DNA from: a virus
Reading direction: 5' to 3' (one strand)
IMG/VR virus record: IMGVR_UViG_3300025620_000026
Location: 1-31,565 of that record
Length of the DNA stretch: 31,565 nucleotides
Numbering within the stretch: the stretch's first letter is position 1; the number at the start of each line of letters is the position of its first letter. A program made the position numbers and the translations under genes. This document shows positions 1 to 16,275 of this stretch, in pieces. The notes under the pieces were generated by a model. That model did no database searches. It had not been told where the DNA came from and saw nothing but the letters and a program-made list of their open reading frames with translations.

Positions 1-43
1 ATACATACCTTTTGTAGATATAGCTTTAGAAATATTTCACTAA
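1..43 (+). CDS. 3' end of an unidentified upstream gene (partial)
   Basis: The frame that starts at base 2 is open from the window edge and reads YIPFVDIALEIFH before a TAA at 41-43. That stop shares its last base with the nrdB start codon (TAATG), the same 1-base coupling seen between several other gene pairs here. Thirteen codons are too few to name a family. The position suggests another member of the same plus-strand nucleotide-metabolism operon, but this is inference. Confidence 0.5.
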   Translation, partial: YIPFVDIALEIFH

Positions 44-1002
44 TGGGTTTGTTTGATGAGCGCATAGCGTACAAACCGTTTGAATACCCTGATTATTACA
101 CGGAGGGTTGGTTAAAACAAGCACAAGCATTTTGGTTACACACTGAAATACCTATGCAAAGTGATATTAAAGATTGGAAAGAAAAACTAGATGAAAAAGA
201 AAAAAACCTTGTCGGGAACATACTTCTTGGATTCGCACAAACGGAATGCGCGGTATCAGACTATTGGACCCAGAAAGTCGTATCGTGGTTTCCTAAACAC
301 GAGATAAGACAAATGGCTATGATGTTCGGTTCACAAGAAACTGTACATGCTGTAGCATATAGTTATTTAAATGAAACTTTAAAACTAGAAGATTATGAAG
401 CGTTTTTACACGAACCTGCGACAGCCGATCGTTTTGATAACCTGGTTGCTTATGATGGCAACGACAGTGTGGGTATTGGAACCTCCCTTGCTATCTTCTC
501 TGCTTTTGCAGAAGGTGTTAGCTTATACAGTGCCTTCGCTGTACTTTATTCTTTTCAGCTACGCAATTTACTTAAAGGCATCGGACAACAAATGAAATGG
601 TCTGTAAGAGACGAAAGCTTACATAGTAAAATGGGTTGCCAGTTGTTTAGACATATGTGCGAAGAAGATAAAACACTTTTAAGTGCTTGTGAATCAGACA
701 TATACAAAGCGGCTAATACTATGGTTGATTTAGAAGAAAAGTATATAGACAAAATGTTTGAGATGGGTGATATTGAAGGTATTAAAGCTCATGACTTAAA
801 ACAATTTATAAGAAAAAGAGCTAATGAAAAACTTATTGAACTTGGCTATAAAAAAGCTTTTGAGTTTGACGAAAAAGCAGCTGACAACCTTAATTGGTTT
901 TATCATCTTACCGGGGGCGTCACTCATACTGATTTCTTCGCTATTAGGCCGACTGACTATAGTAAGGCAAATGAAGGAGAAGATTTTGAAGACATATGGT
1001 AA
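43..1002 (+). CDS. nrdB: Class I ribonucleotide reductase, beta (small) subunit
   Basis: This is the radical-generating subunit of class I ribonucleotide reductase, which pairs with NrdA to reduce ribonucleoside diphosphates for phage DNA synthesis in the cytoplasm. At 319 residues it is a compact but complete NrdB. The dimetal ligands are visible: E68 in QTECAVSDYW, E99 and H102 in ETVHAVAY, E157 in FAEGVSLY, and E191 and H194 in RDESLH. Tyr106 lies four residues after H102, where the radical tyrosine sits in E. coli NrdB (H118/Y122), so a tyrosyl-radical enzyme is expected. The acidic tail ending FEDIW is the usual docking peptide for NrdA. The start overlaps the preceding stop (TAATG) and no Shine-Dalgarno sequence precedes it. 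The 3' end overlaps the next gene by 7 bases. Confidence 0.96.
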   Translation: MGLFDERIAYKPFEYPDYYTEGWLKQAQAFWLHTEIPMQSDIKDWKEKLDEKEKNLVGNILLGFAQTECAVSDYWTQKVVSWFPKHEIRQMAMMFGSQETVHAVAYSYLNETLKLEDYEAFLHEPATADRFDNLVAYDGNDSVGIGTSLAIFSAFAEGVSLYSAFAVLYSFQLRNLLKGIGQQMKWSVRDESLHSKMGCQLFRHMCEEDKTLLSACESDIYKAANTMVDLEEKYIDKMFEMGDIEGIKAHDLKQFIRKRANEKLIELGYKKAFEFDEKAADNLNWFYHLTGGVTHTDFFAIRPTDYSKANEGEDFEDIW

Positions 1003-1247
1003 CAAAAATAAAACTACTTAAACTGTTAGCTTATACAAACAAGCTAACATCATATCAGAAGTTCGCATCACGTGTAGGTTACATGGGTGCGGGTTTTTTG
1101 ATAGCAGGACAATGGACATTAGATCCTAGACTTTTTATGATAGGATTTGTATGTGTAATAGTACAAACGTCATCAAGAAAACAATGGAATCTTGTTGCGT
1201 TAAATATTAATGGGCTAATTGCCTGGATAACTCATTTTATAAAATAA
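996..1247 (+). CDS. Small membrane protein encoded between nrdB and nrdA
   Basis: An 83-residue protein I cannot assign to a named family. It has a basic N-terminus (KIKLLK), hydrophobic stretches around residues 29-38 and 47-57, and a C-terminal stretch near 66-82 (LVALNINGLIAWITHFI), so two or three membrane segments are plausible. It lies wholly inside the reductase operon. Its start overlaps the end of nrdB by 7 bases (996-1002), and its TAA shares one base with the nrdA ATG (1245-1249). The tight overlaps argue that it is translated with both subunits. Whether it anchors the reductase at the membrane, transports something, or is only carried along is unknown. Confidence 0.82.
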   Translation: MVTKIKLLKLLAYTNKLTSYQKFASRVGYMGAGFLIAGQWTLDPRLFMIGFVCVIVQTSSRKQWNLVALNINGLIAWITHFIK

Positions 1248-2965
1248 TGTGGAACAATGAATGGAAAAAAGGTGAAGACTACCCAAAGTGGGGAGACACC
1301 GACGTATACAAAAAAACAATATCTGGAGGATACTTATATCAAGGAGAAACACCAAAGGAAGCTTATAAAAGAGTTGCAAAGACGGTTGCTCGTAGATTAT
1401 ATAAACCAGAAATGGCAGAAACTTTTTTCGAGTATATTTGGAACGGCTGGCTATGCTTGGCTAGTCCGGTACTTAGTAATACCGGTACTGATCGTGGTCT
1501 ACCTATTAGCTGTTTTGGTATCGATGTTGCTGACAGTATACAAGACATAGGACAAAAAAACTTAGAGATGATGCTACTCGCTAAGCACGGCGGTGGAGTT
1601 GGTATCGGTATAAATCAAATAAGACCCGCTGGCGCTAATATAACAGGAAATGGAACATCTGATGGAGTTGTGCCGTTTTGTAAAATTTACGATTCAACAA
1701 TACTCGCCACTAATCAAGGATCTGTCCGAAGAGGAGCTGCTTCAGTTAACATCAATATTGAGCATGCCGATTTCGAAGACTGGATCGAAATTAGAGAACC
1801 TAAAGGAGACGTTAATCGTCAATCCCTCAACCTACACCAGTGTGCTGTGGTCGGCGACAAGTTCATGCGAAGAGTTGAAGCAGGAGATAAAGATGCTAGA
1901 AAAAGATGGAGTAAATTATTACAAAAGCGTAAAGCAACTGGAGAACCTTATATTTTATTTAAGGGAAATACAAACAAAAATAACCCAGCAGCATACAAAG
2001 ATAACGGTCTCAAAGTTCATATGACAAACATATGCTCTGAGATAACATTACACACTGATGAAAATCATAGTTTTGTATGTTGCTTATCATCATTAAATTT
2101 AGCTAAATATGAAGAATGGAAAGGTACAAACCTTATTTATGATAGTATATGGTTTCTTGACGGAGTCATGGAAGAATTTATACAAAGAGCTAAAGGTTTA
2201 CGAGGATTTGAAAACGCGGTCCGCTCAGCTACCAAAGGCAGAGCGTTGGGCCTTGGAGTATTGGGCTGGCATACGTACCTACAAGAGAAAGGGATCAGCT
2301 TCGAAGGTTTACTTGCTCAGTTTGAAACTAGGAAAATATTTAGTCAGATTAAAATTGAAAGTGAAAGAGCTTCAATGGCGTTGGCTGAAACTTATGGAGA
2401 ACCTTTATGGTGTTCTGGAACTGGTTTACGTAATACTCATTTACGTGCTGTTGCTCCTACTGTTAGCAATAGTAAGCTTAGCGGCAATGTTTCGCCTGGT
2501 ATTGAACCTTGGGCTGCGAATGTTTTCACAGAACAAACAGCTAAAGGTACTTTTATAAGAAAAAACCCTTCTCTAGTTAAGTTGTTAAAAAAATTAAAAA
2601 TTAACAATGAAGAAACTTGGAAGAAAATACTTGCTGATGGTGGTAGTGTACAGGATATTGCAGAGCTAGATGATGTTGTTATGTCACATGACACTAGTGC
2701 AAAAGATGTGTTTAAAACTTTCAAGGAAATTAATCAACTAGAATTAGTTAATCAAGCTGGATTGAGACAGCAATATGTAGATCAATCAGTTAGTTTGAAT
2801 TTAGCTTTCCCTAGCGTTGCTACGCCTAAGTGGCTTAACAAGGTTCACTTTGAGGCTTGGAAAAAAGGTGTTAAAACTTTATATTATACTAGGACAGAAT
2901 CTGTTTTACGTGGAGATATAGCTCAACAAGCAATGAACGAAGATTGTTTAGCTTGCGATGGTTAA
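1247..2965 (+). CDS. nrdA: Class I ribonucleotide reductase, alpha (catalytic) subunit
   Basis: This is the catalytic subunit that reduces ribonucleotides with the radical supplied by NrdB. The expected sites are present. Cys89 (PISCFG) and Cys278/279 (FVCCLSS) match the redox pair, and N261-C263-E265 (NICSEITLH) match Asn437/Cys439/Glu441 of E. coli. Tyr546-Tyr547 (TLYYTRTES) match the radical-transfer pair. The C-terminus ends CLACDG (Cys567, Cys570), the swinging tail that is re-reduced by thioredoxin or glutaredoxin. At 572 residues it is much shorter than bacterial NrdA (about 750-760). It begins directly in the catalytic region and lacks the roughly 90-residue N-terminal ATP-cone. Its start overlaps the preceding stop (TAATG). 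A terminator follows about 75 bases downstream. Confidence 0.96.
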   Translation: MWNNEWKKGEDYPKWGDTDVYKKTISGGYLYQGETPKEAYKRVAKTVARRLYKPEMAETFFEYIWNGWLCLASPVLSNTGTDRGLPISCFGIDVADSIQDIGQKNLEMMLLAKHGGGVGIGINQIRPAGANITGNGTSDGVVPFCKIYDSTILATNQGSVRRGAASVNINIEHADFEDWIEIREPKGDVNRQSLNLHQCAVVGDKFMRRVEAGDKDARKRWSKLLQKRKATGEPYILFKGNTNKNNPAAYKDNGLKVHMTNICSEITLHTDENHSFVCCLSSLNLAKYEEWKGTNLIYDSIWFLDGVMEEFIQRAKGLRGFENAVRSATKGRALGLGVLGWHTYLQEKGISFEGLLAQFETRKIFSQIKIESERASMALAETYGEPLWCSGTGLRNTHLRAVAPTVSNSKLSGNVSPGIEPWAANVFTEQTAKGTFIRKNPSLVKLLKKLKINNEETWKKILADGGSVQDIAELDDVVMSHDTSAKDVFKTFKEINQLELVNQAGLRQQYVDQSVSLNLAFPSVATPKWLNKVHFEAWKKGVKTLYYTRTESVLRGDIAQQAMNEDCLACDG

Positions 2966-3812: not shown

Positions 3813-3973
3813 TATTTAGGTACACATTTATTAACACGTTTAATAGCACCACTAGCAGTTTTTGCACCACTAGGTGAATCTTGTGTTCCTACTTTTTTAT
3901 ATTCAGGCCAACAATCAATTCTTAACGGTGAATTAAAATGTGTTGCGCTTTGGACTTTCTTACATATACTCAT
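3812..3973 (-). CDS. Small hypothetical protein, 53 residues
   Basis: A short gene between the peptidase and the DUF6321-like gene, supported by its junctions. Its ATG overlaps the peptidase stop (ATGA, 3970-3973), and its TAA overlaps the next ATG (TAATG, 3812). The product starts MSICKKVQSATHF, has three Cys (4, 21, 50) and a central CWPEYKK, and ends in a basic KRVNKCVPK. There is no membrane segment or signal. The family is not recognised; the three cysteines and basic character might indicate metal or nucleic-acid binding. Confidence 0.72.
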   Translation of the reverse strand: MSICKKVQSATHFNSPLRIDCWPEYKKVGTQDSPSGAKTASGAIKRVNKCVPK

Positions 3974-4428
3974 ATTACCATGTATTTAGTTTTGTTATTT
4001 TCGTCTTTATATGCTTTTAAACATCTGTTTCTATTTTTGTCATCACTTACGTAACTAATATGAACCCAGTTAGGATTTTTATCAGTACCAAACTCCCATA
4101 TCATTTGATCAAACGATAAATTTTCTTTTATCCACTTATACATTTCTGCATTAGTAGCATGACCAAATGTGTCATCAATATCAATTGCTTGACCGTGACA
4201 GTGTTGTGATTTAGAACTTCCGCCAATAGCTTTATTAAGTTCAGGTCCACGATAAAATGAATTGATCTTTATAGGACCTCCTACGTGCTCTCTAAGAGGC
4301 TCAAACACTTTTTCTGATATAGTAATCATGTTTAATAAATGATCGTCAGTGGGATCGTTTTTAATACCTAGCCTTTCTGCTGTTCTGCTATACACTCCTT
4401 CGTGTAGACTTACGTGTTTACTTAACAT
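3970..4428 (-). CDS. M15-type peptidoglycan peptidase, probable endolysin
   Basis: A 152-residue zinc peptidase of the M15 (D-Ala-D-Ala carboxypeptidase-like) type, expected to cut peptide cross-links of host peptidoglycan. The signature SxHxxGxAxD is at residues 74-83 (SQHCHGQAID), giving zinc ligands H76 and D83; the third ligand is H123 in NWVHISY. E112 in IWEFG is the likely catalytic base, and FYRGPELN (58-65) is the usual substrate-side segment. There is no signal peptide or membrane span, so it would need a holin-like partner to reach the wall. The single-span proteins upstream are candidates. Its start overlaps the end of the preceding gene by 11 bases. It is a single domain with no cell-wall binding module. 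Confidence 0.9.
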   Translation of the reverse strand: MLSKHVSLHEGVYSRTAERLGIKNDPTDDHLLNMITISEKVFEPLREHVGGPIKINSFYRGPELNKAIGGSSKSQHCHGQAIDIDDTFGHATNAEMYKWIKENLSFDQMIWEFGTDKNPNWVHISYVSDDKNRNRCLKAYKDENNKTKYMVI

Positions 4429-4649: not shown

Positions 4650-5060
4650 TTAAAATTTACTAGCGTTATTTATTTCGTTTATTGATTCTTGAATTTCTTG
4701 TAGATCAGTAGGTAGCAACAAGTCTAAACCAGCTTTAAATGTTGCTTGTTTCTCACCATCTTTAAATATAATTAGTGTTGGTGCCATACGTATTCTATAT
4801 TCTTTTTTAGCGTTTGGAGCTTTAGAAATATCTACTCTATAGTATAGAGCATCTTTTACTTGTTCCCATTCGTCAAAACAATTTTCTTTATTAAAATCTG
4901 CCCAAAACTCTATAAGAATAGTTTTGTCATTGTCATCTCCAAAGGCAGAATTACCAGACACTACCTCTTCAAAATTATCATCAGTTAACCAGTATTTATC
5001 AGGAACATCTGATTGTGAAAAAGATAAAAATGGTATTAAAATTAAAATTAAATATTTCAT
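4650..5060 (-). CDS. Secreted thioredoxin-fold protein lacking the CxxC active site
   Basis: A 136-residue protein with an N-terminal signal (MKYLILILIPFLSFSQS) and a thioredoxin-like body. The beta-strand and helix start read TILIEFWADFNKENC at residues 47-61, and the cis-Pro loop reads RMAPTLIIFKDGE at 91-103 with Pro94. Aligned to the canonical WCGPC, both catalytic cysteines fall at Asn57 and Asn60, and the only Cys (61) is one residue late. Ordinary disulfide exchange is therefore unlikely. With its signal peptide it should act in the periplasm, so it is not the reductant for the phage reductase. A chaperone-like or binding role is possible. Its ATG overlaps the preceding stop (TAATG, 5058-5062). 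Confidence 0.82.
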   Translation of the reverse strand: MKYLILILIPFLSFSQSDVPDKYWLTDDNFEEVVSGNSAFGDDNDKTILIEFWADFNKENCFDEWEQVKDALYYRVDISKAPNAKKEYRIRMAPTLIIFKDGEKQATFKAGLDLLLPTDLQEIQESINEINNASKF

Positions 5061-5380
5061 TATCTATTCTTTTGTATTTCGTATATTCTTTCGTCTAGCT
5101 TATCTAGTTTTTCTAATATCATTTCTACGTCATCTTGAGTGTCCATGATAGTGTTACGTATTAACTCGTCTTTTAACTCCCACTCTGTTTTAGATATAGT
5201 AGGCTTAGGCATTTCCATAGCTAAAGCTATATCTGCCTTTAAGCTAAACCAAACACCAGCTAGTGATACTATACCAAATACCAACGCTCCTATTGTTTTT
5301 AATGATACTCCAACGTCTGGTTTACCATCACCATCTATATCTAAGCCTATTTTATAATTTTCGTCTAAGTTCTTTGCCAT
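5060..5380 (-). CDS. Single-span membrane protein with Ca-loop-like motif (paralogue A)
   Basis: A 106-residue protein with one membrane segment at about residues 27-47 (IGALVFGIVSLAGVWFSL) and a charged C-terminal helix (about 64-104) that looks coiled-coil. Just before the membrane segment is DIDGDGKPD (14-22), which fits the DxDxDGxxD calcium-binding loop of EF-hand/dockerin type. It is clearly related to the next gene upstream: both have the GIVSxAGVWFxLxAxIA block and a later QDDVE. One span plus a coiled coil next to a peptidase suggests a holin-, antiholin- or inner-spanin-like role in lysis, but no established family was recognised. Confidence 0.82.
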   Translation of the reverse strand: MAKNLDENYKIGLDIDGDGKPDVGVSLKTIGALVFGIVSLAGVWFSLKADIALAMEMPKPTISKTEWELKDELIRNTIMDTQDDVEMILEKLDKLDERIYEIQKNR

Positions 5381-5383
5381 GTC

Positions 5384-5698
5384 TTATTTTTTAGCATTAT
5401 CTATTTCTAGTGCTTTAACTATATATTTTAAGTTTTCAACATCATCTTGAAGATACATTATTCTTAAGTCTTGCTTAGCATCGTCTGGCAACGCACCCAT
5501 CTCTCCTCTTGGCCACTTAATTCTAAACTCTTCATTTAGCTCTACAGCATCTTGCATTCTAACTACGTCTAATTGTAGCTGAGCTATTTCAGCTGTTAAC
5601 GTAAACCAAACTCCAGCTATTGAAACAATACCTACTACAGCGCCAATTACAGCTTTTATATCTAGTGATACTTTAGATGTTTCATTTATTTCTTCCAT
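5384..5698 (-). CDS. Single-span membrane protein (paralogue B)
   Basis: A 104-residue protein with one membrane segment at about residues 15-35 (IKAVIGAVVGIVSIAGVWFTL), followed by helical, charged sequence. It shares the GIVSxAGVWFxLxAxIA block and the QDDVE motif with the 106-residue neighbour, and was probably produced by tandem duplication. It lacks that neighbour's calcium-loop-like motif and has a central insert (KWPRGEMGALPDD, 61-73). Its start overlaps the beta-barrel stop by one base (TAATG at 5696-5700). A lysis or envelope role is inferred from context only. Confidence 0.82.
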   Translation of the reverse strand: MEEINETSKVSLDIKAVIGAVVGIVSIAGVWFTLTAEIAQLQLDVVRMQDAVELNEEFRIKWPRGEMGALPDDAKQDLRIMYLQDDVENLKYIVKALEIDNAKK

Positions 5699-6896: not shown

Positions 6897-9800
6897 TTAA
6901 TTTTTGTTTTTTCTTTTTTTATAATCTTCGTAAGCAGATGAACCAGATCTTCTTTTTCTACCTCTTTTCTTTTTCTTTTTTAACTTTTCTAATTTATCGT
7001 CAGCTTTAGACCCAACATCCCAAGTGTTCCAACCTAAGAAATTAGCAAACCTTTGCCAAGCCTTATTTTCTCTGTTTAAACTAGCTCTAACATTGTTTAT
7101 TTTATTAAACAACCTATCTAAAGGTATGTTAGTTCCAGCCGCAACAACATTACCAAAAGCTTGATATATAGGATTACCTATTCCAGGACCATAATCAGCT
7201 ATAGCTTCTTTGTTAAATTTCCAAGTTTGAATACCTGAGTATAGCTTTCTAGCTTTACTACCTATTGGTGGAGACAAGTTCATAAACTCAATAACAGTGT
7301 AAGTGTGATCAGCGTTCCAGCCTTTGTCTTCTTGTGCTTTAAATTTTAATAAAATATTTTTTATTGTTGACAAACCAGCACCATAAACACCAGTACCTCT
7401 TAATATAGTATCGACCATACTGTTAGCCATTCTAGCACCTTTTTTGTCTAGTATTGCAGCATCTTCTTCGTCATCTTCAAAAGCTAATGCAAATATAGCG
7501 TTTTGTAAAGCTGTAAAAATTAAGTTTTGTACAAAACCGTAATATGCTATTTTAGATATATGTGTTTTAGCATCACCTCTACCATTATATAAATCAAGTA
7601 TAGATTTTTTAATCAACCTAGTATACTGCATTGGTGTGTTTTGAAATGCTAATATTAATCTACCTAATGGACCAGCTTGTTGTTGTGATATTAAATCTGG
7701 TCTAGATGATTGCTGAGATTTTTCAGATGTTTCAGCAAAATCTTCAAAAGCTTTTGTTTCAGCTTGCTGTTTAGTAAAACCTTGTTTAGTATATGTTTTA
7801 ATTCTGTTTCTATAAAAAGTAGCACCACCAGATGCAATAGCAAAACTATCCGCTAATTGAGTAGGTGTAAAACCTAATCTAAGTAGTTCTTTTAATAATG
7901 CTCCAGGAGTATTACCTCTACCTCTTATTGATTTAGCAAGTTCAGCATGGTTGACATCTGTTTGTAAACCTGATCTTCTTTGCTTTAACATGTCTGAGTT
8001 AAATATGGTACTAAAGTCTTCTATGTATTGATCAAAATTTAATACAGCACTAGCGGCTTTAATAGGGCTATTGTCTGACCAGTTTATAAAGTTAACCATT
8101 GATATTGTTTGTAAAACAGCAGACCTCATATTAAAGAACATAATAGCTCCTACAGAGTTATTCACCCAATTCTGGAAAGTATTAACTAATTTATTGTTAC
8201 CTGTTGTCCTATTTGTGCCATTTTCCATTCTCCACAGAATATCTTCAAGCGCAGACCTAAAATCATCACCATATATAGCCTCAATTTTATTTAGATTTTC
8301 TTTACTAAATATTTCATTTTTATTGTTGATCCATTCACCTAAATATCTTTTTCTATTTTCTTTAGATGTTAAATCGCTGATATCACTAGCTACACTACCA
8401 TCTAACCAGTTTTCACCTGGTTTTATGTAGTTAGTGTCTTTAGACATGTTGTATACACTGTCTGCGTAAGCTTTTATATCAGAATATTTTTCTACAAAGT
8501 TTATTAATGACTGAGCTTCGTTTTTACTCATACCGGGTATGCTATAACCGTTTCTATTCCATATGTAAACCCTAACAGCATCTTGCATGAAGTACTCACC
8601 TTTGTTAAGCTTTTTGTTTAAAGATTCATTAACACCAGGGTATTGTTTTTTAATTAAATTAAAAGCATCTACATAAGCTTGCTTAGCTCTATTCATAGCC
8701 GCGTTAGCTTTAGCAAAAGGTTTAAACAATCTTAATTCAAAAAACTTCATTTGAAGCTCTCCTCTTTTACCTTTAGCTAAAAACTGATATATTAAACCTT
8801 GAAAATCTTCAGCACCAGGTGGTATAAACCAACTGCTTTTAACTCTAGCTCCTTTAGCTTTAGCTGCTGCAGCATTAAATCTTTTTTCTGATTTAACACC
8901 TTTAGTTCCTTCTAGTATATCGTTAAATATATCTGAGTTACCTTTTTTACTAAACTGAAGCTTAGCTTGTTCAACATTAGGATTAAGGTTAAGATGATTT
9001 AATGTGTCTTGTACTGCTTTTACGTTTTTATAAGCATCATCAGCAAAGTAAAAATCATTATAACCTTCAGCTGCTTTTTGAGTTATCCAATCAGCTTTAG
9101 CAGATGGTCGTCCGTCTTCTAAACCTGTAATGTTTTCTATAGGTATATTTAAACCAATACCTTTTAAAAACGCGTGTATAGCATATGCAGCTTCTTGTGG
9201 CCTAGCAGTTAGTACAAATATATTCTTGCTTCCAAACTTGCCCTGTCTTTTTAAAGCAAGATCAGCTAGTGGTCCTTTTTTACCGTCAATAACTTTAGTA
9301 AATTCACTAAAGTCAAACTCTGCGCCAGCAGCTTCTAAGTCGGCTGACTTTAAAGCAAACTCAGTAGCATCTATTTTAATATTTTTACCATCAGGCATTT
9401 TTACTAATATCTTGCTATTAGTTCTAGCTAATGTATCATCAAAATCAAATACACTAATACCTTTAGGTGTTTTACTAAATTGAATTTCTGCTTTTATTAT
9501 ATTAGCAGACTTGTTATATTCTGTTTTAGAGTATTGTAGCCCTGTATCTATAATTTTACCTGTAGAAACATCATACAAACGTAAACCCGTGCCTGAGTAC
9601 CTGTTATCAGTAGGTTTAGAACCTACTTTGTGATCTATACCCATAGCTGATTGAGTTCCGTCTTCTCTAAGTTTTTTATCAATTAAATCTGGTAAAACTA
9701 GCGTTGCGTAATTTTCTAACTCTGCAACTAAAGTTTCTTTGTTACCAGTTATAACATAGTCATAAACTAAACCTTTTATATAGTCAGCTGGTATCATATG

Positions 9801-12800
9801 CTCTAACACACCTGGATCATTTTTCTTATCTGAAAAATTTTTAAATGTTAATACATTATCATTTTTGTCTAACATTAGAAATTTAGGACCAGCAGCTGCT
9901 TTACCTACACCAACCATGTTACCAAATTGAGTTACTAAAACCCATTGTACTTGTTGATATGTTAAATCACCATCTACAATACCTTTTCTTAATACATCCG
10001 CAAGCTTAAGCAATATACGTCTATCTTCTAAACTACTGTTGTATAATTTTTTTACAAAAGCTTTTTTACCGTCATCATCAAGTTTGTTAAACGGATTACC
10101 GTAGTACCAGTTCTTTTTGGTTATGTTACCATCTCTAAAACCATCTTTTGTAGATTCTATATTTAAGTTTCTGTTTGTGTCTTTAGTATCTTTAAATGCA
10201 GAGTAATATGCTTTATTTCTTTTACCATTGCTTTTAAACTCTGGTATAGCTTTTGCTTCAGATTTTTTAATTTCTAAACCAACATTATCACTAACCTCAA
10301 AACCCGCTACTCTAGCTGGATTTGTAACACCTTGATATATACCTCTTATAAACTCACTTTTAGTTAATTTTTTAGATATATAGCTTATAGCTTTTCTAGC
10401 GCTATTAACACCGTCTAAACTATTTAAATCTACTATACTTTTAATACCATACTTAGCATTTAAAACTTTAACAGTAACCTCGCCTTCACTTATTTTTGTA
10501 TGTAAATTATCTATAGCAAAATCAAGACCTTTTTGTTTTTCTTTAGCAAAAGTATTTTTTGCCATCCAAGGTTTCCCTAATTGTTCAGCTATCTTTCTAG
10601 CATCTTTTATATCAGAAGCTTTTAGTACTTGTGATATAGCGTTAACTAACCACCTTTCGTTAGTTCTTTCTATATAGTTAGTTCTATATACATGCTTAGC
10701 ATATGGAGTTTTTAAAGCATCTACAACAGCTTTACTTTGTTTAGAATCATACATTGTTTTGCTAAACTGAATAGTAGTATCAAAGCCTCTACCTTCAATT
10801 GCTTTTTTATCTAAACCTACATTTATATCTTTTATTAATTGCTTAAGCTGTATGTCTGCAATTGCAACCCCACTCATTTCAGCAACTTCAAAAAGCTTTT
10901 TAAGAAACTTACCGTCTGTCAATAAATGACTAACTTCTATTTTATTATATTCAGCCGCTATTTCTTTGGCAAGCTTTAACTGTTTAGCTTTAAGTGTAGT
11001 ATATTTACCTAATGTAAAGTAAGCACCCCACTCTCCTCTAGTAGGCGCTGTCATTTCAAAGATAGCGTTACCTTGAGCTGTTTTTTCTCTATCTAATTGT
11101 TTAAGCTTAAATAGTTTACCGTAAGATTTTTTTATAGAACTTAACGGAAACGATTTAACAGCTGTTTCATAACTGTCGTTAATAAACTCTTTGTATTTTT
11201 CACTAACAACCAAGTTACCTTCTTTGTTAGATATTTCACCCATCTGATCTTTTATAGTTCTAGATATATACTTGTCAACATTTTCTTCTATGTTCTCTAT
11301 TATTTTATCAGTTGTCAAATGTACTCTACCGATGTTTTTAATTAACACCATACTTACGTCTCTTGAAACATCTTTCTTAACAGTTTCGCTATAAAAGTCT
11401 TTATTTTTTCTATCTTTAAGTTTGTCAAAGCTAGTTAGTTTTCTAGCCTCTTTACCTTGATCTACGTTAGATACTTTATTTGTTTTATTGCTTACTGATT
11501 TTTTTAAAGTACCATCTTCTCTGTTTAAACCTTCATTAGCAGCGTCTTTAGCAAAGTATGTAAACACTTCTTTAGATCTTTCTTTAAAAAAAGTATTAAT
11601 ATAAGCAGCTACGTTGTTATATTTTTGTTTTTCAGATTCAAAATCTTGAACTAAACCAACTACGTTTCTGGCCTTGCTATTTGCTTTTTGACTAGGTATC
11701 TTATCATACAACATCATAGCAATCATGTCTTCTTTTTTATCTTCAAAGACTTGTTTTTGATTTAACGTATAGTTACTACCTTCTTTTAAACTATTAAAAA
11801 CAGATTCAGCCATACCTCGGTATAACATAGCTATTTCAAAACCAGCTTCTGTTTTATTTTCATTATTATTATATATATCATTAACTTTCTGAGCTTCAGC
11901 TGAAGTTTGTGATTTTTGTAACCCACCTTCCTGCGCTAGGTCAACACCACCTATAGCCGCTTTAGCCTCAGAGCTAAGTCCTTTTGTATTCTTGCTGTAA
12001 TCTTTAATGAAGTTGTAAACACCTTGTCCATCTTTAAATGATATATTATCAAAACCTTTACCTACAAAAAAGCTTTTTATAGCGTCTCCGGCTTTACCCA
12101 TAGCGCTTTTGTTAAAGTTAACTTTTTCTTGAGCTATAAGATCTGAAAACACTTGAGCGTATTCAGTAGCAAACTCTTCTTTAGTATTGTAACCTCTGTT
12201 TTTCATTTCAGCGTCTACAATTTTTCTATTCTTACTACTCATCGCTCTTCTAATACCTTTAACCATCTTAGATTGAGCAGCGACATCACCAACTTTAGCA
12301 TTCATTACTTTATGTAAAAACTCATGCTTAGCTACATTTACTTGACCTGTTTTTCTAGCAACTTCTTTATTTACAAATATCTTACCATTTACAGTAAAGC
12401 CAGCTACCTCACCTTTGTTATTTGTAAACTCTTGTTTTGATTTTTTATCAACCTCGCTTAGGTTTTCCATAGCAGCCTCTGTTTCTAGAGTGCTATTTAA
12501 TATGTTTGTTTCTAGGTTTTTAGCTGATTTTTCTGATTTAACAGTAGACTCTAAAAACTCTATGTTTTCAGCAAGCTTCATGTCACCAATCTTTTGCTTA
12601 GCTTTATCGTATTTAACTAAAAATCCATCTGAAGCCACCTTGTGTTCAGCTTCGGTTATTTGACCTGTTCTTAGTTTTTTATTTAATTCAGTAATTTTAA
12701 AAGCAGTAACATCTGATAAATCATTAAAGCTTTCTAGTTCTGATATTTGCTTACCGTTTAGGCTATTATATATTTTGTTACCTTTTTGAACTTGATCAGC

Positions 12801-14015
12801 AATACTCATTTCTAAGCCATCAATCTTGTTTTGTAAACCTTGTCTTACTGTTTCGTCTTTAGTTGTATTTAACTTAACTCTTAGCTGAGTCATTTCAGCT
12901 ATGTCAGTGTCTAGCTTGTCACCATCAACAGCACCTCTAACTTGATTCATAGCTTTAACGCTATATGTTCCAGCTACCATACCACCACCACCTATAGCAC
13001 CTTGTAGACCAGCTTCTAAACCTTCTTCACTAGTTATAGCTTCTAAAAAAACTTGTCCTGCTTTAGACTCTTCATTTGTACCAGCAACTCTACCTAGTTC
13101 ATCGTTAACAGCATCAATACCATGTTGTGTTATCTCAGTTACAGCTTCAGTACCACTAGAGGCTAATAAACCTAAAGCACCTCTGGCTTTTGAACTATAC
13201 ATTACCTTAGATAAAATAGATTTTGGTATTAATTTACTAGCGCCTCTAGTGTAAGGGTTTAACTGTGCAGCACCGTAAGCCACTGTAGCTAAAGTACCTA
13301 TACTTTCTGATGCCATGCTAGCTACACCTAACGTAACAGGTGTGACGTTATCAGCCTCTCCGCTCGTTATTAACTCTTCTAAAGACATACCTAGGTTCTC
13401 AGCTTTTTGCTTGTTGTACTCCGCGTAATTTCTAGCTGTAAAATCAGCAAAATAACCCATACCAAAAGTAGCTGTACCATAAGCAACACTACCTATCATA
13501 TTTGTTATAGCGTTAACTGTACCAGCAGCCGCTCCACCAAGGTCACCTTTTTTCCAACTATCAATTATACCTTTAGTTTGCTTCATCTCCATTTGATCCT
13601 CTTCGTATCTAGCTAAAGCTTCTAATGTATTCTTACTACCAATATCACCACCTAGCCAAACATCTTTATTTTCTAGGTTTTCTTGACCATATATAGCGCT
13701 AAAAACAGCGTTAGTTGTTATGTCTTTAGCAGCGTCTTTACCACCATCATCACTATAAAACTCTCCTATGTCACTAAAGTTTTCAAAAAGATTACTAAAA
13801 GAGTTTTTGATTGATTGCCAACTACTTATCTCTGGTAATTCCGATGAAGTATTTACCGAATTGGAGTCCGTATCTTCTGATCCCGTGTTTGACTCCACTT
13901 GTACAGGATCCGATGTCTTTCCCGGCGAGTTGTAAGATTTTATAACAGTTGCTATATTCTCTTCAGGCTCACCAGCCTCGATCATGCGCTGCACGATTTT
14001 TTCTAGTTCGTTCAT
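6897..14015 (-). CDS. Giant multidomain internal virion protein (metallopeptidase-like and HAD phosphatase domains)
   Basis: A 2372-residue protein, probably packaged in the capsid and ejected with the DNA. Residues 1-60 are acidic and Ser/Thr-rich. Residues 155-355 hold several Gly/Ala-rich hydrophobic segments (for example AVAYGTATFGMGYF) that could insert into membranes. An HExxH site (HEFLH, 564-568) with glutamates at 613, 614 and 618 suggests a zincin peptidase. Residues 1517-1680 are a HAD phosphatase: DFDDT 1524-1528, LTARP 1602-1606, FADD 1657-1660. Residues 1730-2180 are a long helical region ending in a hydrophobic segment (2156-2179). The tail (2340-2372) is Lys/Arg-rich. Short (I/L)Q(F/Y)SK motifs recur at domain borders (1082, 1493, 1511, 1686). 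The start immediately follows the upstream stop. I saw no RNA polymerase signature. Confidence 0.88.
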   Translation of the reverse strand: MNELEKIVQRMIEAGEPEENIATVIKSYNSPGKTSDPVQVESNTGSEDTDSNSVNTSSELPEISSWQSIKNSFSNLFENFSDIGEFYSDDGGKDAAKDITTNAVFSAIYGQENLENKDVWLGGDIGSKNTLEALARYEEDQMEMKQTKGIIDSWKKGDLGGAAAGTVNAITNMIGSVAYGTATFGMGYFADFTARNYAEYNKQKAENLGMSLEELITSGEADNVTPVTLGVASMASESIGTLATVAYGAAQLNPYTRGASKLIPKSILSKVMYSSKARGALGLLASSGTEAVTEITQHGIDAVNDELGRVAGTNEESKAGQVFLEAITSEEGLEAGLQGAIGGGGMVAGTYSVKAMNQVRGAVDGDKLDTDIAEMTQLRVKLNTTKDETVRQGLQNKIDGLEMSIADQVQKGNKIYNSLNGKQISELESFNDLSDVTAFKITELNKKLRTGQITEAEHKVASDGFLVKYDKAKQKIGDMKLAENIEFLESTVKSEKSAKNLETNILNSTLETEAAMENLSEVDKKSKQEFTNNKGEVAGFTVNGKIFVNKEVARKTGQVNVAKHEFLHKVMNAKVGDVAAQSKMVKGIRRAMSSKNRKIVDAEMKNRGYNTKEEFATEYAQVFSDLIAQEKVNFNKSAMGKAGDAIKSFFVGKGFDNISFKDGQGVYNFIKDYSKNTKGLSSEAKAAIGGVDLAQEGGLQKSQTSAEAQKVNDIYNNNENKTEAGFEIAMLYRGMAESVFNSLKEGSNYTLNQKQVFEDKKEDMIAMMLYDKIPSQKANSKARNVVGLVQDFESEKQKYNNVAAYINTFFKERSKEVFTYFAKDAANEGLNREDGTLKKSVSNKTNKVSNVDQGKEARKLTSFDKLKDRKNKDFYSETVKKDVSRDVSMVLIKNIGRVHLTTDKIIENIEENVDKYISRTIKDQMGEISNKEGNLVVSEKYKEFINDSYETAVKSFPLSSIKKSYGKLFKLKQLDREKTAQGNAIFEMTAPTRGEWGAYFTLGKYTTLKAKQLKLAKEIAAEYNKIEVSHLLTDGKFLKKLFEVAEMSGVAIADIQLKQLIKDINVGLDKKAIEGRGFDTTIQFSKTMYDSKQSKAVVDALKTPYAKHVYRTNYIERTNERWLVNAISQVLKASDIKDARKIAEQLGKPWMAKNTFAKEKQKGLDFAIDNLHTKISEGEVTVKVLNAKYGIKSIVDLNSLDGVNSARKAISYISKKLTKSEFIRGIYQGVTNPARVAGFEVSDNVGLEIKKSEAKAIPEFKSNGKRNKAYYSAFKDTKDTNRNLNIESTKDGFRDGNITKKNWYYGNPFNKLDDDGKKAFVKKLYNSSLEDRRILLKLADVLRKGIVDGDLTYQQVQWVLVTQFGNMVGVGKAAAGPKFLMLDKNDNVLTFKNFSDKKNDPGVLEHMIPADYIKGLVYDYVITGNKETLVAELENYATLVLPDLIDKKLREDGTQSAMGIDHKVGSKPTDNRYSGTGLRLYDVSTGKIIDTGLQYSKTEYNKSANIIKAEIQFSKTPKGISVFDFDDTLARTNSKILVKMPDGKNIKIDATEFALKSADLEAAGAEFDFSEFTKVIDGKKGPLADLALKRQGKFGSKNIFVLTARPQEAAYAIHAFLKGIGLNIPIENITGLEDGRPSAKADWITQKAAEGYNDFYFADDAYKNVKAVQDTLNHLNLNPNVEQAKLQFSKKGNSDIFNDILEGTKGVKSEKRFNAAAAKAKGARVKSSWFIPPGAEDFQGLIYQFLAKGKRGELQMKFFELRLFKPFAKANAAMNRAKQAYVDAFNLIKKQYPGVNESLNKKLNKGEYFMQDAVRVYIWNRNGYSIPGMSKNEAQSLINFVEKYSDIKAYADSVYNMSKDTNYIKPGENWLDGSVASDISDLTSKENRKRYLGEWINNKNEIFSKENLNKIEAIYGDDFRSALEDILWRMENGTNRTTGNNKLVNTFQNWVNNSVGAIMFFNMRSAVLQTISMVNFINWSDNSPIKAASAVLNFDQYIEDFSTIFNSDMLKQRRSGLQTDVNHAELAKSIRGRGNTPGALLKELLRLGFTPTQLADSFAIASGGATFYRNRIKTYTKQGFTKQQAETKAFEDFAETSEKSQQSSRPDLISQQQAGPLGRLILAFQNTPMQYTRLIKKSILDLYNGRGDAKTHISKIAYYGFVQNLIFTALQNAIFALAFEDDEEDAAILDKKGARMANSMVDTILRGTGVYGAGLSTIKNILLKFKAQEDKGWNADHTYTVIEFMNLSPPIGSKARKLYSGIQTWKFNKEAIADYGPGIGNPIYQAFGNVVAAGTNIPLDRLFNKINNVRASLNRENKAWQRFANFLGWNTWDVGSKADDKLEKLKKKKKRGRKRRSGSSAYEDYKKRKNKN
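8958..9467 (-). other. HAD phosphatase domain bounded by QFSK motifs
   Basis: This interval encodes about residues 1517-1686 of the giant protein. It carries the ordered HAD motifs: DxDxT (D1524, D1526, T1528), the Thr motif in VLTARP (T1603), a Lys (K1640) in the motif III position, and FADD (D1659, D1660). This resembles polynucleotide 3'-phosphatase and nucleotidase-type HADs. The domain is framed by IQFSKT at 1511-1516 and LQFSKK at 1686-1691. Substrate is unknown; nucleotide or nucleic-acid 3' phosphate is a reasonable guess. Confidence 0.82.
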
Positions 14016-15930: not shown

Positions 15931-16275
15931 TTATCTGCTACTTTCAACTACTTCAGAGCTAACATGAAATATTTCAGCAGCGGTAGTGCTGTTGTTTTGT
16001 AAATCAATTTCAGCATAGTAACCAGCTATGCTACCCATACTAACCGTATTGTCTTTACTAAACAATATAAAATCAGTGGCTGAAGGTCTAACAGCAAAAG
16101 GTTCTATATTGCAAGATATTGTAAGATCTGTAACAGCTGTTATAACACCTATTTTTTTTATATCTCCAGCTGTATTAAAACCTCCGACAGCAGAAGTAGA
16201 TGCGTAATAAGCAGTGTCACCTACCTGAACTGAATCTTGTACCGGGTATGAAAAAGTTAATGTTATGTTTGCCAT
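15931..16275 (-). CDS. Small beta-rich structural protein
   Basis: A 114-residue protein predicted to be mostly beta strand, without signal or membrane span. It begins MANITLTFSYPVQDSVQVGD and ends SSEVVESSR. The segment SIAGYYAEIDLQNNSTTAAE (residues 82-101) recalls a small conserved protein next to tail-fibre genes in marine phage contigs, but this is from memory. The length and location, just downstream of the 600-residue beta-sandwich protein, suggest a tail or fibre accessory or decoration protein. Confidence 0.72.
   Translation of the reverse strand: MANITLTFSYPVQDSVQVGDTAYYASTSAVGGFNTAGDIKKIGVITAVTDLTISCNIEPFAVRPSATDFILFSKDNTVSMGSIAGYYAEIDLQNNSTTAAEIFHVSSEVVESSR

Follow-up and report, generated by a model that had tools for sequence, protein, structure and literature searches.

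The locus and the giant protein

The window, i.e. the whole analysed stretch of 31,565 nucleotides, carries on its minus strand a single ORF for a giant protein of 2372 aa. A full-length identical copy of the protein is present in a longer IMG/VR contig, and the protein is a member of a large marine phage family (Bacteroidota phage). Two ORFs at 1-1002 and 1247-2965 on the plus strand, opposite to the structural genes, were assigned by eye to the small and large subunits of a ribonucleotide reductase (window 1-2965). An endolysin gene at 3970-4428 (phrog_894) is located near two adjacent small ORFs at 5060-5380 and 5384-5698 (GIVSLAGVWFSLKADIA and GIVSIAGVWFTLTAEIA), whose paralogue-like products have one transmembrane segment each. 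The transmembrane pair at 5060-5698 and the adjoining endolysin are likely a lysis cassette. The features of the giant protein, all on the minus strand, are listed from the N- to the C-terminus.

6897..14015, minus strand: giant polyvalent-type protein, 2372 aa, motif carrier, single ORF
11988..12512, minus strand: zincin-like metallopeptidase (MPTase) domain, about residues 502-676, with HEFLH at 564-568 and Glu 618
11907..11921, minus strand: degenerate motif copy LQKSQ, residues 699-703, after the MPTase; seen from the forms in relatives; coil with pLDDT<50
10758..10772, minus strand: motif copy IQFSK, residues 1082-1086; coil 1067-1093 with pLDDT<50
9546..10742, minus strand: module without family match between copies 1082 and 1493; largely confident AlphaFold2 (AF2) segment
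9525..9539, minus strand: motif copy LQYSK, residues 1493-1497; segment 1493-1503 with pLDDT<50
9471..9485, minus strand: motif copy IQFSK, residues 1511-1515, directly before the HAD domain; low pLDDT, helix end
8970..9470, minus strand: HAD phosphatase domain, about residues 1516-1682; from Foldseek and from PHROG matches of homologues
8946..8960, minus strand: motif copy LQFSK, residues 1686-1690, directly after the HAD domain; segment 1681-1691 with pLDDT<50
7011..8918, minus strand: conserved helical C-terminal block, about residues 1700-2335; 50-88% identity across relatives

Searches with the protein itself detected nothing in Pfam and PHROGs, and tblastn of the whole sequence against 50,697 phage records gave no match. 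A homologue set of about 118 giants above 1500 aa was collected from IMG/VR scans, 93 of which remained after redundancy removal. HExxH is present in 88 of the 93 (0.008 expected per protein). Two further giants of this set, L141 and L145, have an HExxxH variant (HEMIVH, around residues 1066-1075), a form of the MPTase known from polyvalent proteins (Iyer et al., 2017, PMC5512222). The H, E, L, H and E columns of the MPTase are at least 90% conserved, the conserved Glu lying about 50 residues past HEFLH.

AF2 models were calculated for residues 485-1200 and 1181-2372 and are of moderate quality (pTM 0.38 and 0.45). Foldseek yielded nothing significant for the first model; in the second, HAD folds alone stood out, by probability. 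The HAD region matched HAD acid phosphatases with a probability of 0.99 but an E-value of only 0.27. It shows the signature GISVFDFDDT at residue 1518, and its final helix/strand ends near 1681. A polynucleotide kinase family, phrog_415, was matched by 15 of 43 homologues. The C-terminal block contains AGPLGRLILAFQNTPMQY. The module at residues 1092-1490 (9546-10742) is in part predicted very confidently (block pLDDT up to 96) and contains LEHMIPADYI and GIDHKVG, by eye weakly HNH-nuclease-like. Compared with L002, a relative of 80% identity, hardly any differences are seen in the first ~60 residues and similarity resumes from the MPTase onward, while residues ~60-545 (window 12385-13840) are unrelated. 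This alignment indicates that close relatives have exchanged residues ~60-545 as an entire module, whose end lies directly in front of the MPTase.

Relatives of the portal are found in flavobacterial podoviruses, namely Flavobacterium elemo phages, Cellulophaga phi38:1 and phi13:2, and Maribacter Panino. Giants follow the late structural genes at the same place in the gene order in phi38:1 (gp101), phi13:2 (gp127), elemo phage 13-1A and Panino (CDS0069). Their N-terminal module is homologous to that of the window protein family, and a structural-protein annotation has been given to several of them. Neither HExxH nor the strict motif is present in three of the four; the protein of elemo phage 13-1A has HExxH and one MMFSR. 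Judging by how these positional homologues are annotated, we infer that the window protein is carried in the virion and probably injected.

The window protein resembles the polyvalent proteins in its giant size, in its disparate enzymatic domains with a zincin-like MPTase, and in a predicted role in the injected cell (Iyer et al., 2017). It combines biochemically unrelated domains (MPTase, HAD phosphatase and C-terminal block in 2372 aa), and its MPTase shows the HExxH/HExxxH with a downstream Glu. Of the named LPD domains of polyvalent proteins, none was detected by Pfam in the window protein; LPD18 was found in two homologues (best E 5e-4) and LPD14 weakly in one.

Motif copies in linkers and at module borders

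The window protein was scanned for strict copies with the pattern [ILV]Q[FY]SK. Four copies of the form [IL]Q[FY]SK were found, against a composition expectation of 0.01, and none of 5000 shuffles of the protein contained more than one. Their positions (1082, 1493, 1511 and 1686) and that of the degenerate LQKSQ (699) had been given exactly in a preliminary description, which had also noted that two copies frame the HAD domain. This framing is confirmed, copy 1511 preceding the GISVFDFDDT signature and copy 1686 following the HAD end at ~1681. The strict motif is absent from the other ORFs of the window, one looser LFSK occurring in an ORF of 114 aa (15931-16275).

Several copies are retained in relatives. 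In three relatives of 80, 55 and 50% identity, copy 1686 is kept as [IA]QFS[KR], with QFS invariant among four aligned homologues, and copy 1082 as IQFSQ, VQFSR or IQFST. Copy 699 corresponds to VQYSQ in the 80% relative and to VQKSR in the 50% relative; LQKSQ is a degraded version of VQYSQ. An exact copy 1511 is absent from the nearest relative (80% identity).

Copies 699, 1082, 1493 and 1686, four of the five, are located in segments with pLDDT<50 between better predicted domains. Copy 1511 has a pLDDT of about 55 (block means 52-58) at a helix end. About 18% of the modelled residues have pLDDT<50, and by our own arithmetic at least four of five copies would fall there with a p of about 0.004. 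The linker at 829-857 contains no motif. Burial in a folded core, named beforehand as evidence against a border function, was not observed: the copies occupy exposed linkers of low confidence.

Module breakpoints were taken from all-against-all alignments of the giants. At least five breakpoints lie within 15 aa of 69% of the motif copies, compared with 18% of random positions in the same proteins; the maximum in 2000 permutations was 32%. Without the HAD-flanking copies, the values are 66% and 16%. Alignments end at linkers anyway, so this result shows the motif at module borders and not as a cause of exchange. In homologues, the motif is not absent but is found between domains that are the same or have been swapped, and together with the copies flanking HAD in homologues the breakpoints uphold the earlier proposal of a domain-border mark. 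There is strong support for the motif marking domain borders in the giants.

The copies are encoded by different codons (synonymous codon identity 0.62 versus 0.55 expected), which indicates that selection acts on the peptide. The motif serine is AGT in 57% of the copies compared with 27% overall, a hint at the codon level that some copies may share ancestry. A recombination joint at the DNA level was rejected, no conserved nucleotide sequence being common to the joints. Of the recombination-derived joint suggested in the preliminary description, the coincidence of motif and module joints therefore stands, but the copies are not conserved as DNA.

These data bear on the possibility that the tag is an inherited border sequence, riding with recombining cassettes and their linkers and having no role of its own. 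The coincidence with breakpoints would fit, and the AGT excess hints at common descent; in addition, the residue before F/Y (Q or K) is coherent within proteins and follows C-terminal relatedness. However, three residues are fixed in otherwise scrambling linkers, serine codons of both the TCN and the AGY type are found, and the core is also present in proteins from other groups of phages. Such a passive origin is considered improbable.

Enrichment in the family and in other polyvalent proteins

The frequency of Q[FY]S[KR] is 0.24 per kaa in the giants, compared with 0.04 in the remaining large ORFs of their contigs. After occurrences with similar flanks were collapsed, FSK ranks third among the over-represented tripeptides of the family, behind TPE and DPN, both of which resemble common proline turn motifs. 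Q directly before the F of FSK is enriched (z=6.5). A strict copy is absent in 36 of the 93 homologues, many of which have degraded forms. Among 81 HAD-bearing giants, [FY]S[KR] follows the HAD domain within 45 aa in 44, a count partly due to shared descent, and precedes it within 45 aa in 32, with about 5 expected on either side. Inside the HAD domain of these giants, no excess of [FY]S[KR] was found (13 versus 17).

Polyvalent proteins outside the family were gathered by searches for LPD38, LPD1 and MuF_C in Pseudomonadota and for LPD38 in Bacteroidota, and were treated as non-family. The Bacteroidota searches yielded mostly short proteins, so the outside set is mostly from Pseudomonadota; 12 of the 13 proteins scanned with Pfam derive from Pseudomonadota genomes or their phages. 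In these 13 proteins, some of which are mutually homologous and which Pfam covers only in part, the density of [FY]S[KR] up to 60 aa from a Pfam domain edge is 5.7 times that elsewhere (odds ratio, p=2e-6, n=13). Control tripeptides of four classes are flat around the domain edges of the same proteins. The outside consensus is looser, the residue before F/Y rarely being Q. L217, L228, L269 and L221 contain 5, 6, 6 and 4 copies of [FY]S[KR], respectively, where composition predicts 1 to 1.8. LPD37 is framed by a pair of copies in L221 and in L269, copies lie on both sides of an ART-PolyVal match in L228, and LPD1 is followed by a copy 9-10 aa on in L217, L228 and L267. HExxH or HExxxH was present in all 17 polyvalent sequences examined, outside-family proteins included, several of the latter having HExxxH. 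Related tags in the joints of unrelated giant phage proteins from other bacteria suggest that injected proteins have a signal of the type 'cut or handle here' in common.

A composition effect, by which FSK would arise by chance in the linkers of lysine- and serine-rich proteins, is very improbable. The giants are indeed rich in K and S, and the raw count of FSK is only 1.6-fold above a neighbour-based (Markov) expectation. Against this, a mere 0.01 copies are expected in the window protein and FSK stays enriched after the collapse of similar contexts. The positional enrichment with flat control tripeptides contradicts a composition effect.

A candidate processing signal and its reader

The motif hydrophobic-x-[FY]-S-[KR] may well be a short linear processing signal in the linkers of injected polyvalent proteins, most likely a cut site, although this reading is by no means assured; the likeliest protease would be the MPTase in cis. 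According to this proposal, the tag is kept in disordered linkers between the modules. The giant would be made and packaged as one chain, its conserved C-terminal block and its N-terminal module acting in the assembly of the virion and in ejection. Cutting at the tags, putatively by the zincin-like MPTase domain of the same chain, would take place while the head matures or once the protein has been injected. Enzymatic modules, e.g. the HAD phosphatase, would thereby be freed, and any module landing between two tags would be released automatically.

Polyvalent MPTases have earlier been proposed to process their own proteins, and N4 vRNAP has an MPTase yet is packaged uncut (Iyer et al., 2017, PMC5512222). 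In the present family, 88 of 89 strict copies are located C-terminal of HExxH, with one observed on the N-side versus 29 expected; this bias is partly shared descent, and several control tripeptides are biased in the same way, more weakly. No strict copy was found in L142 and L151, the two giants without detectable MPTase, or in three cultured relatives without HExxH, few proteins in either case. An MPTase is also present without the motif in P1 DdrB and without the strict motif in MW202828. P1 DarA, DarB and DdrB were considered as motif carriers and rejected, no copy being present in any of them. Within a protein, the residues before F/Y tend to be of one type, Q or K (59 of 150 pairs; maximum of 47 in 2000 shuffles), a coherence inseparable from descent. 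In a partial Mantel analysis, the Q/K type tracked C-terminal relatedness and showed no link to the MPTase sequence beyond relatedness (partial r=0.08, p=0.15). The MPTase as determinant of motif specificity is not supported by this analysis; it is thus the best candidate reader, not an established one.

Alternatively, the tag may be a binding handle for a chaperone, an unfoldase or a virion channel protein, aiding the threading and refolding of modules during ejection. The exposed linkers and the conservation of the peptide fit a handle equally well, and the combination of hydrophobic and basic residues resembles DnaK-type sites. However, chaperone sites are usually less specific than this narrow Phe/Tyr-Ser-Lys/Arg signature, and a handle does not predict that copies lie so predominantly on the C-side of the MPTase. 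For the cargo proteins of phiCrAss001, unfolding and refolding during ejection have been proposed (PMC10172136), in line with a handle. Overall, a handle appears somewhat unlikely. These cargo proteins, gp45-gp50, are large, virion-borne proteins of a Bacteroidota podovirus with proposed tail ejection, and by description they are like the window protein, a large protein of a Bacteroidota phage. The paper on phiCrAss001 does not mention cleavage or proteases (PMC10172136).

Processing at short linear motifs is known from other phages. The prohead protease gp245 of SPN3US cuts internal head proteins after A-X-E (PMC10052503), and P1 DarA is trimmed by Pro (PMC12810830). Like the SPN3US motif, which directs processing, the window motif is short, linear and repeated. 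It differs in its location at folded-domain borders instead of N-terminal propeptides, in a candidate protease within the same chain, and in that its cleavage is putative. While motifs of the T4/phiKZ-type prohead proteases end in Glu, hydrophobic-Q-[FY]-S-K lacks this residue. The window motif resembles the SPN3US gp245 and P1 Pro sites by its logic but not by its sequence.

Both the polyvalent proteins and the prediction that they process themselves have been published (Iyer et al., 2017). No earlier mention of the motif was found: a text search of that paper (PMC5512222) revealed no border motif, and a search for the motif string in the open-access literature gave nothing relevant, an earlier description elsewhere being possible. 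More tentatively than the cut site itself, hydrophobic-x-[FY]-S-[KR] could perhaps represent an undescribed 'cut-here' code across phages of different bacterial phyla, read by built-in zincin metallopeptidases and turning one chain into separate effectors during infection. Ever since polyvalent phage proteins were described, it has been a standing question whether each works as a single machine or is a polyprotein that is cut into parts. With a defined border motif, this question can be put to a direct test, by exact ends in virion proteomes and by point mutations expected to block processing. As an annotation rule, the motif marks domain limits in giant phage proteins with mostly unnamed domains.

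A double motif recurs in the window protein (9471-9539) and in L049, L055, L056 and L065: two copies separated by 14-20 aa immediately precede the HAD or kinase module, as if a short peptide might be cut out. L055 (170-12301) is a homologue of 4044 aa with six strict copies in all; in the region of residues 2406-2612, two of them, 15 aa apart, directly precede a P-loop kinase (Zeta_toxin/AAA_33, 1.5e-11). This kinase and the HAD modules matching a polynucleotide kinase PHROG suggest injected enzymes for the processing of nucleic-acid ends. In one member of alignment A3, a segment matches Sigma70_r2 (8.7e-6); a sigma factor-like domain within an injected giant protein would be of interest.
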